This document shows, piece by piece, positions 1,424 to 41,792 of a DNA stretch of 64,000 nucleotides (within the stretch, counting starts at the first letter, position 1; each line of letters opens with the position of its first letter). The stretch lies in the NCBI RefSeq assembly GCF_016862555.1, contig NZ_BONE01000020.1:1-64000 (forward strand). The letters run 5' to 3'. The notes under the pieces are model-generated. The model worked only from the letters and a program-made list of their open reading frames with translations. It made no database searches and had not been told where the DNA came from. The stretch comes from Asanoa siamensis. Its GTDB lineage: Bacteria; Actinomycetota; Actinomycetes; Mycobacteriales; Micromonosporaceae. The position numbers and the translations under genes are program-made.

Positions 1424-1746
1424 GGCAGCCGTCGACCCGGGTCCGCGCTTGCCGAACGCGTTGGGCGTCGGCCAGGTCCTCACCCGGGGCACCCCGTCGC
1501 GAAGAAGGGTTGCCGATCAGCGAGCCGGGGCTTGACGCTGACACTCATGACCTGGCATCAGAATAGCCAGAACGCCCGGCGCCCCCTTCCGGCGGGGCGT
1601 CCGCGCCAAGCCCGAAAGGCACATCCATCGATCGGGTACGCCCTCAGATCCGCGCATGGTCCCGGGGGTGCAGGGTCGGAGAACCTGCCCGCCGGAGCCG
1701 TGAGTGTGCCTTGGCGGTGGCGGTGGCGGTGGCGCATCATGGCCTT

Positions 1747-3273: not shown

Positions 3274-3299
3274 TCGCGAAATATGCCCCTCTACCTGTG

Positions 3300-3373
<74 letters not shown>

Positions 3374-37140: not shown

Positions 37141-39933
37141 ATGCCCCAAATCGCCCAAACCCTGCTCGGCCGAGCCACCGAGCGCGCTGCCCTCGACCGG
37201 CTGTTGACCGATGCGCGCCAGGGGCGAAGCGGCACGCTCGTCCTGCGCGGCGAGGCCGGCGTGGGCAAGACCGCGCTGCTCGACTACGCCGCCGACCGCG
37301 CGGCCGGCTCGGTGGTGCTCCGCGCCGACGGCACCGAGTCCGAAATGGAGCTTCCGTTCGCGGGCCTGCACCAGCTATGCGCGCAACTGCTCGACCGCCT
37401 GGATCGGCTGCCGGCACCGCAGCGCGATGCGCTGGGCGTCGCCTTCGGCCTGTCCACGGGTCGCCCGCCCGACCGGTTCCTCGTCGGCCTGGCCGTGCTG
37501 ACCCTGCTGGCCGGCGGTGTCGCCCGCCGACCGGTGCTCGCCCTCGTCGACGACGCGCAGTGGCTCGACCGGTCGTCGGTGTGGACACTGGCCTTCGTGG
37601 CCCGCCGGCTGCGGGCCGAGGGCGTCGCCCTGGTCGTCGCCGAACGGGCCGGGGCCGACGACAGCGACCTGACCGGCCTGCCCGCCCTGACGGTGTCGGG
37701 ACTCGGCGAGCCGGACGCCCACGCGCTGCTGGCCACCGTGGTGCACGGCAAGCTCGACGCGCGGGTGCGGAACCGGATCGTCGCCGAGACGCAGGGCAAC
37801 CCGCTCGCGCTGCGCGAGTTGCCGGGTCTGGACGGCGGCTTCCCGTCGCCGCCCGACCGGCCGATCGCCGGCCGGATCGAGCGCGGCTACGAGCGACGCT
37901 ATGCGGCACTGCCGGAGCCGACGCGCCGGCTGCTGCTGACGGCGGCCGCCGAGCCGACCGGGGACGTCGCGCTGCTCTGGCGGGCCGCGGCGGCGCAGGA
38001 GATCCCGGACGACGCCGCCGCCGCGGCCGAATCGGCCGGTCTGGTCGACCTCGGGGCTCATGTCCGGTTCAGCCATCCCCTCGTCCGATCCGCGATCTAC
38101 CAGGGCGCTTCGGCCGGTGACCGACGGGCCGCGCATCAGGCGCTCGCGGGCGCCACCGACGCCCGGGCGGACCCCGACAGGCGCGCCTGGCACCGGGCGC
38201 TGGCCGCCGCGCGACCCGACGAGCGGGTCGCCGGCGAGTTGGTGGACTCCGCCGACCGTGCCGAGGCCCGGGGTGGCGCCGCGGCCGCGGCCGCCCTGTT
38301 GGAGCGCGCGGTCGCACTCACGCCCGACCCGGGTCGCCGCGCGCTGCGGGCGCTGACCGCGGCACAGGCGAAATTCGACGCCGGCGGCGGCGACGCCGTG
38401 CACACCCTGCTCGCGACGGCGGAGGTCGGGCCGCTCGACGCCGTTGCCCGGGCCCGGCTCGAGCGCCTGCGGGTCCGGGTGACGTTCGCCGCCCGGCGGG
38501 GCGGTGACGCACCCGCTCGGCTCCTCGACGCCGCCAATCGCCTCGCACCGCTCGACCCGGACCTCGCCCGCGAGACCTTCTTGGAAGCGACCGGCGCGGC
38601 CGTCTACGCCGGCCGCCTCGGTCACGGTCCCGGCCCCCGCGAGACGAGCCTGGCCGCTCGGGCCGCGCCGGTCCGGCCCCACCCCGACCCGGCGACCGAC
38701 GCCCTCCTCGACGGCCTCGCGACCCGGTTCACGGACGGCTACGCCCGCGGCGTGGAGCCGCTGCGCCGGGCGCTGCGGGCGTTCGGAACAGGCGCGGACG
38801 AGGCGCCGCTGCGCTGGCTCTGGCTCGTCTGTCCGGTGACGCCCGAGCCGCTCGCCGCGGAGATCTGGGACGACGACATGTGGCACGACCTGTCGACCCG
38901 GGCGGTCGACCTGGCCCGGGACAGCGGCGCGCTCACCGTGCTCCCGATGGCGTTGAGCTACCGGGCCTGCCTGCACATGCACGCGGGCGAGCTGGCCGAG
39001 GCGGCGCGGCTGATCGACGAGTCGACGACGGTCTCGGCGGCGATCGGCAGCGCACCGCTGCGCTACACCGCGCTCGTCCTGCTCGCCTGGCGCGGCCAGG
39101 AGGCGGAGGCGACGGCGGTCATCGAGGCCGGCGGGCGGGACGCGGTCGCCCGCGGTGAGGGGCGGGCGCTCGGCCTGGCCGACTACGCGACCGCGTTGCT
39201 GTGCAACGGCCTCGGCCGGTACGAGGAGGCGATGGACGCCGCCCACCGGGCATGCCGGTACGAGGATCTCGGGTTCTACGCCTGGGCGCTCGTCGAGCTG
39301 GTGGAGGCCGCGGTCCGGACCAGCCACCGGACGGCCGCGGAGACGGCGATGCGTGCCCTGGACGAGCGGACGCTGGCCAGCGGCACCGACTGGGCGCTCG
39401 GCGTGCGGGCCACCGCGGCCGCGCTGCTGAGCGAGGGTGGCACGGCCGAGGCCCACTACCGCGAGGCCGTCGACCGGCTGGGCCGTACCCGGGTCGCGCT
39501 GCACCTGGCCCGGGCCCACCTGCTGCGCGGCGAGTGGCTACGCCGCGAGAACCGCCGCCGGGACGCCCGCGCGGCGCTGGGGCAGGCGTTCGAGATGTTC
39601 GACCGGATGGGCGCCGAGGGGTTCGCGGAACGCGCCCGGCGCGAGCTGCTCGCGACCGGCGAGGTGGTCCGCAAGCGAACCACCGACACCGCCACCGATC
39701 TCACGCGACAGGAGATCCAGATCGCGGAGCTGGCCCGGGACGGCGCCACGAACCCGGAGATCGCGGCGCAGCTCTTCCTCAGCCCGCGCACCGTGGAGTG
39801 GCACCTGGGCAACGTCTACGCCAAGCTCGGCATCTCGTCCCGCCGTGACCTGCGTCGCGCGCTGCCCGCGAACCGCGTCGCGCGGCCGGTCGCCGGTCAG
39901 ACGGCCAGCTGGTCGCCGGGGACGAGGCTGTAG
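37141..39933 (+). CDS. LuxR-family LAL-type regulator (ATPase plus HTH)
   Basis: 930 aa. An AAA-like ATPase starts with [20 protein letters not shown] and [11 protein letters not shown] (Walker A); [11 protein letters not shown] is Walker B. A long helical, TPR-like sensor follows. The C-terminus has the Lux[43 protein letters not shown] and [13 protein letters not shown] regulators (MalT relatives) activate nearby operons on ATP and inducer binding. ATG 37141 is supported by TACACT; the frame extending back to 35983 is antisense to the hydrolase. Its end overlaps panD by 37 bases. Confidence 0.9.
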
Positions 39934-40313
39934 CCGTCGGGCACCTCGGCCGGGTCGGCGCCGGTCGTGACGATCGCGTTGTGCTCGTCGACGAACACCA
40001 CGTGCGGCGCGAGCTCGCGGGCCTCGGCGTCCGGCACCCACGCGTACGCGACCAGGATGACCTTGTCTCCGGGGCTGATCAGCCGCGCGGCCGCGCCGTT
40101 GATGCCGATGACGCCGGAATCGCGCGGCCCCTCGATCACGTACGTCGTCAGGCGGTTGCCGTTGTCGATGTCGAGCACGTCGACCCGCTCGCCGGGCAGA
40201 AGGTCGGCGGCCTCCATCAGGTCGGCGCTGATCGTGACCGAGCCCACATAGTGCAGGTCGGCCTGGGTGACCGTAGCCCGGTGGATCTTGGACTTCATCA
40301 TCGACCGGAACAC
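39897..40313 (-). CDS. panD: Aspartate 1-decarboxylase proenzyme
   Basis: 138 aa. The self-cleaving site is in [13 protein letters not shown]: the Gly-Ser bond breaks to give the pyruvoyl cofactor. [10 protein letters not shown] (substrate Lys/His), Tyr of TTYVIEG and NGAAARLI (Asn of the active site) match the family throughout. The enzyme makes beta-alanine for pantothenate and CoA. GTG 40313 is preceded by AAAGG at about 8 bases. No other pantothenate genes are adjacent. Confidence 0.95.
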
Positions 40314-40436
40314 GCGCGGACCTTTCCCGAGACTTGATCGACACAGGTACGAACACGCAATGCTGCGGCATCATTTCCGGGGACCGATCGTGGCGTACGG
40401 GCGCAGTGACATCTCCCACTGGCCGCCCCGGCCCGG

Positions 40437-40442
40437 TAGAGT
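40437..40442 (+). promoter_or_regulatory. -10 hexamer for the leader ORF and MFS gene
   Basis: TAGAGT ends 7 bases before GTG 40450, placing the likely transcript start at the leader's own start codon. Nothing else is visible in 40314-40436. Confidence 0.5.
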
Positions 40443-40449
40443 GCTCAGC

Positions 40450-40539
40450 GTGATCTCCGCGGCCGCCTTCGCACGCTGGATCACTCCGCCGCTCCCGCTC
40501 TACGGCGACGACCACAAGCGCGGCGACTTCGCTCCCTGA
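40450..40539 (+). CDS. Leader peptide, candidate translational attenuator
   Basis: 29 codons (ISAAAFARWITPPLPLYGDD, HKRGDFAP) with near-perfect GC3, apparently leaderless from TAGAGT. Its last sense codons contain CGCTCCC (40530-40536), the exact complement of GGGAGCG (40582-40588), the ribosome site of the MFS exporter. Pairing would hide that site, and a ribosome at the leader's end would free it, as in inducible drug-resistance genes. A hairpin at 40540 separates the two arms. I know of no described homologue. Alternatively it is an ordinary small protein. Confidence 0.5.
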   Translation: MISAAAFARWITPPLPLYGDDHKRGDFAP

Positions 40540-40561
40540 GACGCGGGCCCACTCCCGCGTC
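40540..40561 (+). promoter_or_regulatory. Attenuator stem-loop between leader and MFS gene
   Basis: GACGCGGG-N6-CCCGCGTC, a perfect 8-bp stem beginning the base after the leader stop codon and ending 34 bases before the MFS ATG. It could be a terminator or part of an SD-sequestering fold with 40530-40536/40582-40588. Confidence 0.5.
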
Positions 40562-40595
40562 CCTGCCCACCCTCGACATCGGGGAGCGATGTCCT

Positions 40596-41792
40596 ATGTC
40601 CACTTCCACCCTCGCCACCGACGAACGCCCGCTCGGCATCGGGGCCGTCCTGCGCGCCCCGCGCGTACCCACGCTGCTCTCCGCCAACCAGGTCGGTCGC
40701 CTACCCCTGGCCGCCGGACCGCTGGCCCTGCTGCTCTTCGCCCGTGAGCACGTCAGCCTCGCGCTGGCCGGCCTGGTCGTCGCCGTCTACACCGCCGGCA
40801 TGGCCGTCAGCTCGCCCGTGCTGGCCCGCGCCGTCGACCGCTGGCGCCAGCCGCCGGTGCTCTGGGGCTCGTCGACGCTGTCCGCGGTCGGCTTCCTGAC
40901 CGTCGCGGCCGGCGGCGGGGACCTCGGGATCACGGTGGTCGGCGCGGCCCTGGCCGGCCTGGGTACGCCGCCGCTGGAGGCCTGCCTGCGGGCGCTGTGG
41001 CCGTCGCTGGTGCCGCCGCCCGCCGTCGCGTCCGCGTACACCCTGGATATCGCCCTGCAGGAAGTGATCTTCGTGGTCGGGCCGCTGGTGACGCTGAGCG
41101 CCGTCGCGATCGGGGGTCCGTCGGCGGGCCTGATCGCGGCGGCCGCCTGCCAACTCACCGGCGTCGCCGTCTTCGCGCTGTCGCGCCCGGTCCGGGTCTG
41201 GCGCGGCGTGCCGGCCAAGCGCCACTGGGCCGGCCCGCTGCGGGTGCCGCGGTTCGTGGTGCTGATCGCCGGCGTCGTCTGCGCGGGCGCGGCCGTGGGC
41301 AGCCTGCCGGTCGCCATCACCGGGTACGCGGAGGCGGCCGGCGACCGCGGCCTCAGCGGCTGGCTGCTCGCCGCCCAGGCCGTCGGCGCACTGGCCGGCG
41401 GGCTCGCCTGGACGCGGGTGCGGCCGGGCGGCACGGGTCGACTGCCGTTGCTGATGCTCTGTTTCACGGTCGGCTACCTGCCGCTGCTGATCCTGCCCGG
41501 GGTCGGCGCGATGGTGGTGCTGGTGGCGATCAGCGGGGTCGCACTGCCGCCGGTGCTGACCGCGGTCTTCCTCACCACCGACCGGCTGGCGCCGACCGGC
41601 ACCGTGGTCGAGGCGTTCGCCTGGATCGTGACCGCCTTCACCGTCGGCAGCGCCAGCGGCGCGGCGCTGGCCGGTCCGCTGGCGGCGAGCAGCCCACGGG
41701 CGGCGTTCGTCCTGGCCCCGGTCGTGGGCCTGGTCGGGGTGGGCGCGATGTCAGTGGTTCACCGGCTCACCGTGCGACCGCGAGCCGCCTGA
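40596..41792 (+). CDS. MFS transporter, probable drug exporter
   Basis: 398 aa with about 12 hydrophobic helices: PLALLLFAREHVSLALAGLV, VVAVYTAGMAVSSPVLARAV with the loop-2 ARAVDRWRQ basic motif, and GSASGAALAGPLAASSPRAA late. It belongs to the short MFS proteins resembling sugar/drug effluxers. ATG 40596 has GGGGAGCG at 8 bases; an out-of-frame ATG at 40589 is ignored. It is preceded by a leader ORF and hairpin and closed by a terminator at 41799. Confidence 0.85.
   Translation: MSTSTLATDERPLGIGAVLRAPRVPTLLSANQVGRLPLAAGPLALLLFAREHVSLALAGLVVAVYTAGMAVSSPVLARAVDRWRQPPVLWGSSTLSAVGFLTVAAGGGDLGITVVGAALAGLGTPPLEACLRALWPSLVPPPAVASAYTLDIALQEVIFVVGPLVTLSAVAIGGPSAGLIAAAACQLTGVAVFALSRPVRVWRGVPAKRHWAGPLRVPRFVVLIAGVVCAGAAVGSLPVAITGYAEAAGDRGLSGWLLAAQAVGALAGGLAWTRVRPGGTGRLPLLMLCFTVGYLPLLILPGVGAMVVLVAISGVALPPVLTAVFLTTDRLAPTGTVVEAFAWIVTAFTVGSASGAALAGPLAASSPRAAFVLAPVVGLVGVGAMSVVHRLTVRPRAA

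Follow-up and report, generated by a model that had tools for sequence, protein, structure and literature searches.

A candidate leader-peptide attenuator upstream of an MFS exporter gene in Asanoa siamensis and related actinobacteria

How is the synthesis of an exporter controlled when its ribosome-binding site is complementary to the last codons of a short open reading frame (ORF) just upstream? The question is raised by a locus in the first 64,000 nucleotides of contig NZ_BONE01000020.1 of Asanoa siamensis (hereafter the window), where a 29-codon ORF precedes a gene for a transporter of the major facilitator superfamily (MFS). The original prediction was of a translational attenuator with a leaderless leader peptide of no recognised kind. 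We conclude that the locus is probably a translational attenuator with a leader peptide of a new family, and that it would be opened by ribosome stalling around the residues Asp-Phe-Ala-Pro (DFAP). By direct reading, the TAGAGT hexamer, the 7-base gap and the ORF all lie where they had been placed (Table 1). A G or C occupies 26 of the 29 third codon positions, in line with the strong coding bias claimed for the leader, and the perfect 8-bp hairpin at the leader stop is present. The sequence CGCTCCC (40530-40536), within the last leader codons, is indeed an exact complement of GGGAGCG (40582-40588) in the exporter ribosome site, 7 bases before the ATG at 40596. The downstream protein matches the Pfam MFS_1 model.

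The lack of peptide conservation that was to refute the original prediction is clearly not borne out: the peptide is strongly conserved, and the pattern of sequence change is that of a coding region. All six genomes of the genus carry both the MFS gene and the leader. Among 300 genomes of the family, homologues of the MFS protein (E 1e-80 or better) occur at 98 places in 97 genomes, and when all 98 were examined the leader core was found upstream of 89. The nine homologues that lack it (L148 and L152-L159) share 51-54% identity with the window protein, and leader-bearing homologues reach down to 49%. A leader profile matched in 99 of the 300 genomes, including two weakest matches (L209 and L210) in which the core pattern gave no match; the leader of one genome, G054, has an internal stop. 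Over 94 distinct core DNAs, selected for W and LP[LRI]YG..[HRYPT].R.D[FL], nucleotide diversity at codon positions one, two and three is 0.13, 0.08 and 0.29. At positions free of this selection, the first proline, the inner aspartate, the alanine and the last proline are each present in 94 of 94 cores and the threonine in 88. The tryptophan is present in 99 of 106 distinct leader regions. The leader ends in Ala-Pro-stop in 87 of these regions and does not do so in 13 extended leaders and four leaders of a second family (f86), where shorter relatives of the leader precede MFS genes in four of five genomes.

A DNA pattern scan of genome contigs, with the wobble bases of the alanine and proline codons left open, gave 47 loci, all in genera that we take to belong to the Micromonosporaceae; since the pattern requires H and DFAP, it is blind to the shorter relatives. 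An MFS gene lies on the same strand in 74 of 75 pattern-bearing loci (some genomes being counted twice). Beyond the family, a profile scan of 396 genomes of the phylum recovered the window's own genome (E 1e-16) and four others at E 0.0025-0.008. In such wide scans of phylum and class we did not count matches of E 0.0018 or worse as leaders (of these, L229 and L231 were examined). The scans scored at most 20-25 candidates per genome, and their two samples of the class, of 345 and 389 genomes, share members; less common relatives may therefore have escaped them. With the loci described below, the core is found in three actinobacterial families. Plasmids yielded neither the MFS protein at 1e-30 nor the leader at E 1, and viral contigs gave no match to the leader DNA pattern.

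The leader is probably leaderless, as had been proposed. Of the 78 leaders whose start codon could be fixed 14 or 18 codons before LPLYG, 74 show a TANNNT hexamer separated from it by 6-7 bases; the background at gaps of 9-59 is four of 3978 positions. When the start is instead chosen by the hexamer, this spacing from some in-frame start is found in 101 of 106 regions. From this spacing it is likely that the transcript begins at or next to the leader start codon. In the fold predicted for this locus, the leader start region GTGATCT (40450-40456) is paired with the W-I-T codons (40478-40484), and initiation on the leader may thus itself be folded in.

In the predicted fold, the complement at the leader end becomes part of an uninterrupted helix of 11 pairs between 40529-40539 and 40579-40589. 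The ribosome site is then only 0.006 unpaired, so that in the free mRNA it is predicted to be closed. A ribosome modelled over the last leader codons raises its accessibility to about 0.2-0.4. Codon choice points to the same pairing. The DFAP alanine is encoded by GCT in 75 of the 87 Ala-Pro-stop leaders, compared with 107 of 4822 alanine codons (2.2%) in the downstream genes, and the final proline by CCC in 86 of 87, compared with 23% downstream. Where the ribosome site holds GGAGC, the alanine codon is GCT in 62 of 64 leaders; of the remaining two, L128 carries a further complement behind its stop. The predicted CGCTCCC/GGGAGCG pair is kept in most loci of the main type; in several other leader types the ribosome site differs and a complement that fits it lies close to the same codons. 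Across 62 main-type loci, modelled occupancy of the proline codon lifts mean ribosome-site accessibility from 0.05 to 0.27, compared with 0.08 for a control position 12 codons upstream, and synonymous replacement of the leader tail weakens the pairing by 3.75 kcal/mol on average. A ribosome at the leader end is therefore predicted by the model to free the exporter ribosome site. Folding after the leader stop is also stronger than in mononucleotide shuffles (mean z -1.6; below -1 in 40 of 63 main-type loci), and the sequence of the 8-bp hairpin varies among loci. In L082, L098, L110 and L121 the complement is repeated, as CGCTCCCGG or a longer sequence, beyond the leader stop.

The codon data also bear on amino-acid attenuation, in which the leader would sense the charging of one tRNA, as trp and cys leaders do. 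The core holds several prolines, and two of its three proline positions mostly avoid CCG, the commonest proline codon downstream. There is no run of a single codon, however, the conserved residues are of many kinds, pairing accounts for the final CCC, and neither MFS nor adenosine deaminase genes (see below) are biosynthetic for amino acids; of the explanations weighed here we hold this one to be the least probable. A separate observation concerns the proline of W-x-T-P (40486-40488 in the window), which is encoded by the rare CCT in 37 of 94 cores, compared with 1.7% of downstream proline codons; ribosome-site pairing offers no obvious explanation. By the usual wobble rules, both CCC and CCT, as used in the leader, would be decoded by the tRNA-Pro(GGG) encoded in the window.

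The best evidence for the pairing comes from comparison between leader types, in which the complement differs, though it is not matched in every type. The 13 extended leaders continue beyond DFAP (or DLAP), with a tail of 22-26 codons in ten and a shorter one in three, and 12 of them, all but L040, encode the alanine by a codon other than GCT. Five of the extended leaders carry a perfect 10-base complement, GTTCACTCCG in four loci and CACTCCGGGA in one, which begins 13-16 bases downstream from where the phenylalanine codon starts and fits their own, differing ribosome site. In the f86 leaders (M-x-SLEVQLPLYGDDRERGDFPG...) the pairing lies at the D-F-P codons, again with differing ribosome sites. 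The best complement to the ribosome site falls within -12 to +18 of the phenylalanine codon in 76 of 99 loci, including 56 of 63 of the main type, six of seven of extended type a, all four f86 loci and two of three that precede deaminase genes. This survey skipped seven of the 106 regions and some downstream starts were reset by motif; in an initial complement listing, the automatic choice of downstream start codon had been wrong for several distant loci. In permutations that ignore relatedness, 91 loci pair with their own ribosome site over 7.7 bases and with permuted ones over 7.1 (best of 2000 permutations, 7.4), and the 19 extended, f86 and deaminase loci over 7.9 and 6.5 bases (reached in none of 5000). 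In several types the peptide is retained while the complement varies or moves, which separates a putative function in tunnel stalling from the hiding of the ribosome site; the peptide and the pairing would then work as distinct components. As DFAP may be terminal or internal, a pause there, should it exist, would not have to be one at termination. Ten extended leaders carry a conserved proline-rich tail, W-[AT]-PPPL-[WF]-PPW, after DFAP (L045, L103, L105, L107, L111, L113, L116, L119, L120 and L123), which resembles a further element for pausing the ribosome.

Plain translational coupling would account for part of this. The leader would be translated just to open the helix, with no regulated stall and no ligand, and the sequence of the peptide would matter little. 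Occupancy of the leader end does open the ribosome site in the model. However, the core is kept in three families while the complement differs or sits elsewhere in several types, and the third codon positions vary most, which coupling alone does not need; we regard coupling without a stall as improbable.

Table 1. Features of the attenuator locus and other annotated elements of the window.
Feature	Position	Strand	Remarks
Predicted -10 element TAGAGT (TANNNT)	40437-40442	+	Direct reading; 7 bases 5' of leader start codon
Leader ORF MISAAAFARWITPPLPLYGDDHKRGDFAP	40450-40539	+	GTG start at 40450, 29 codons and TGA at 40537-40539; probably leaderless
Peptide core W-x-T-P-x-L-P-L-Y-G-x-D-H-x-R-x-D-F-A-P	40477-40536	+	94 distinct core DNAs
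Strand complementary to exporter ribosome site, TCGCTCCCTGA	40529-40539	+	Last leader codons and stop; fold, GCT bias, synonymous-codon test
8-bp hairpin GACGCGGG-CCCACT-CCCGCGTC	40540-40561	+	Begins directly after leader stop; sequence, fold, post-stop folding in 63 loci
Exporter ribosome site region TCGGGGAGCGA	40579-40589	+	Partner of 40529-40539; GGAGC kept in most main-type loci
MFS transporter gene, 398 aa	40596-41792	+	Pfam MFS_1, E 4.9e-19
panD, divergent neighbour	39897-40313	-	TIGR00223
SAM-IV riboswitch	1440-1552	-	Rfam, 106.9 bits
tRNA-Pro(GGG)	3299-3373	-	Rfam match

Some leaders with the core precede a different gene. In two of 22 genomes of a third family, f105 (the only one of its order in the genome set), a 27-codon ORF with LPLYGxDRxRGDLAP lies directly before an adenosine deaminase gene; the motif ends the ORF in L227 and is followed by two more codons in L228. 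Both cases came from the class sample of 345 genomes, and both, with no others, were recovered from the overlapping one of 389. In a genome of the Micromonosporaceae (G017), MSRIAYKLPLYGVDTERGDLASMP precedes another adenosine deaminase gene, and the same genome holds the MFS arrangement as well (leader matches at E 3.1e-12 and 3.8e-10). The three deaminase proteins match Pfam A_deaminase (E 7.5e-79 to 9.4e-83), and the two that were tested against TIGR01430 score above its cut-off. These loci bear on the idea that the peptide is made for its own sake, perhaps as a signal that the MFS protein exports, with the pairing just balancing expression. The strongly conserved C-terminal part and the adjoining transporter would fit such a role; the presence of the core directly before deaminase genes does not, nor do the differing lengths and N-termini of the leaders and the internal position of the core in the 13 extended ones. 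We consider a peptide product very improbable.

We return to the attenuator and to how it would operate. The mRNA would be leaderless, with its 5' end on the leader GTG or immediately beside it, and in its free state the last leader codons and stop (UCGCUCCCUGA) are predicted to pair with the exporter ribosome site and close it. Ribosomes would translate the leader and, guided by the core in the exit tunnel, would stall or terminate slowly around D-F-A-P. The stalled ribosome would cover the pairing strand, leaving the ribosome site free and allowing the exporter to be made. With the P-site at or near DFAP, the pairing strand would lie under the ribosome in leaders of the main type and of f86, and in those of the first extended type. 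The stall would probably be favoured by a small molecule that is removed by the exporter or, elsewhere, by adenosine deaminase; we reason that a ligand is needed because a leader that always stalled would make the off-state pointless.

The shared core before adenosine deaminase genes suggests an inducer of the adenosine type, and our leading guess is an adenosine-type nucleoside or a nucleoside antibiotic. Drug induction, which formed part of the original prediction, is one possibility among several: the deaminase-linked leaders are as compatible with a nucleoside, a metabolite or an antibiotic as with a classical drug. A variant of the attenuator is that a classical ribosome drug (a macrolide, lincosamide, phenicol or orthosomycin) is sensed and that the deaminase loci are a later borrowing. 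By analogy, the erm- or cat-like logic with an exporter downstream would favour it; the three deaminase loci in two families and the genome with both arrangements fit a nucleoside better, though such loci are still few. We see this variant as possible, if doubtful. The specific proposal that a ribosome with the LPLYGxDxxRxD[FL] leader in its tunnel detects an adenosine-like metabolite or antibiotic, and thereby turns on export or deamination, is one we put forward as speculative and, as it stands, somewhat unlikely. The substrate of the MFS protein was not revealed by Pfam, NCBIfam or PDB sequence searches; with NCBIfam, a multidrug superfamily model alone matched, below its cut-off (E 0.003).

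Several observations weigh against the attenuator or against parts of it. Two Micromonospora loci (L205 and L207) keep the leader with no MFS match behind it (the alanine codon of L207 is GCC, not GCT). The modelled rise in accessibility exceeds 0.2 in 37 of the 62 main-type loci (five of 62 for the control), and in the synonymous-codon test no more than 32 attain 0.05 individually. RNAalifold, applied to 49 aligned main-type loci (54 less L082, L098, L110, L121 and L128, removed by hand for their further post-stop complement), did not find the helix and returned five other pairs, in our opinion because no alignment is possible across the spacer that separates the stop from the ribosome site. 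By pair counts in the same alignment the helix is nearly invariant inside the main type, so support from change comes only from the comparison between types. There, the best complement lies near DFAP in only four of nine loci with distant ribosome sites, in two of five of extended type b and in two of eight other Ala-Pro-stop loci, and in L227 it lies elsewhere. The changed complements may not all have arisen independently. Finally, the link to adenosine deaminase rests on three loci.

The proposed mechanism resembles, by analogy, attenuation of the erm type and sensing of the TnaC type. Control of cat genes involves a leader ORF, a hidden ribosome site and its release on stalling in the leader. 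Passages of PMC8274638 describe the same elements for ermB and its leader ermBL, with release by ribosome stalling in the leader. The locus is like these in its conserved leader ORF just upstream and in a ribosome site that is predicted to be paired in the free mRNA and freed by a stalled ribosome. It differs in that the peptide is not recognised as one of theirs, the start is probably leaderless, the pairing strand consists of the last leader codons and stop, and an exporter or adenosine deaminase lies downstream. With respect to the Pro-stop ending of TnaC-type leaders the picture is mixed: 87 of 106 leaders end in Ala-Pro-stop, and the 13 extended and four f86 leaders do not. TnaC is described as blocking Rho-dependent transcription termination, whereas here a ribosome site is paired and the genes behind the leaders encode MFS proteins or adenosine deaminase, not tryptophanase. 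Moreover, DFAP is internal in the 13 extended leaders and DFPG takes its place in the f86 leaders, indicating that termination is not essential here.

With SecM and the RAPP-type peptides ApcA, ApdA and ApdP, the leader would share nascent-chain arrest at a short proline-containing end. Passages of PMC10951233 place ApcA and ApdA in a subset of actinobacteria. The core here, however, ends in R-x-D-[FL]-A-P in 94 of 94 cases, with no RAPP, RAPG or RAGP, and the downstream genes are not protein-localisation genes. We rejected membership of the TnaC and RAPP families, as the leader lacks the tryptophanase genes that define the one and the RAPP, RAPG or RAGP motif and localisation genes that define the other. 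If the signal is a purine, the functional counterpart would be the pbuE riboswitch; PbuE is likewise an MFS protein. Excerpts of PMC7707468 present the pbuE adenine riboswitch as purine-responsive control of an exporter. Its sensor is an RNA aptamer, and here it would be a nascent peptide. At the gathering threshold, Rfam gave no match at the locus; SAM-IV and tRNA alone matched, elsewhere in the window. The leader is not described in the titles and abstract openings of the literature searched, a scope outside which most subscription papers fall, and the string LPLYG is absent among the literature matches listed for LPLYG or leader peptide.

The locus thus yields a strongly conserved candidate arrest peptide, undescribed as far as this literature goes, in a family rich in antibiotic producers, and the core shared by exporter and deaminase leaders points to a concrete, testable class of inducers. 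If confirmed, a probably leaderless and mostly proline-ended leader would join the short list of small-molecule switches read by the ribosome. An adenosine sensor, if real, would do through a coded peptide what the purine riboswitch does through RNA, and would occur in three or more families of actinobacteria. As to the surroundings of the leader, neighbouring ORFs at 11 of the 47 named loci, delimited with a crude ORF caller, looked different from locus to locus.
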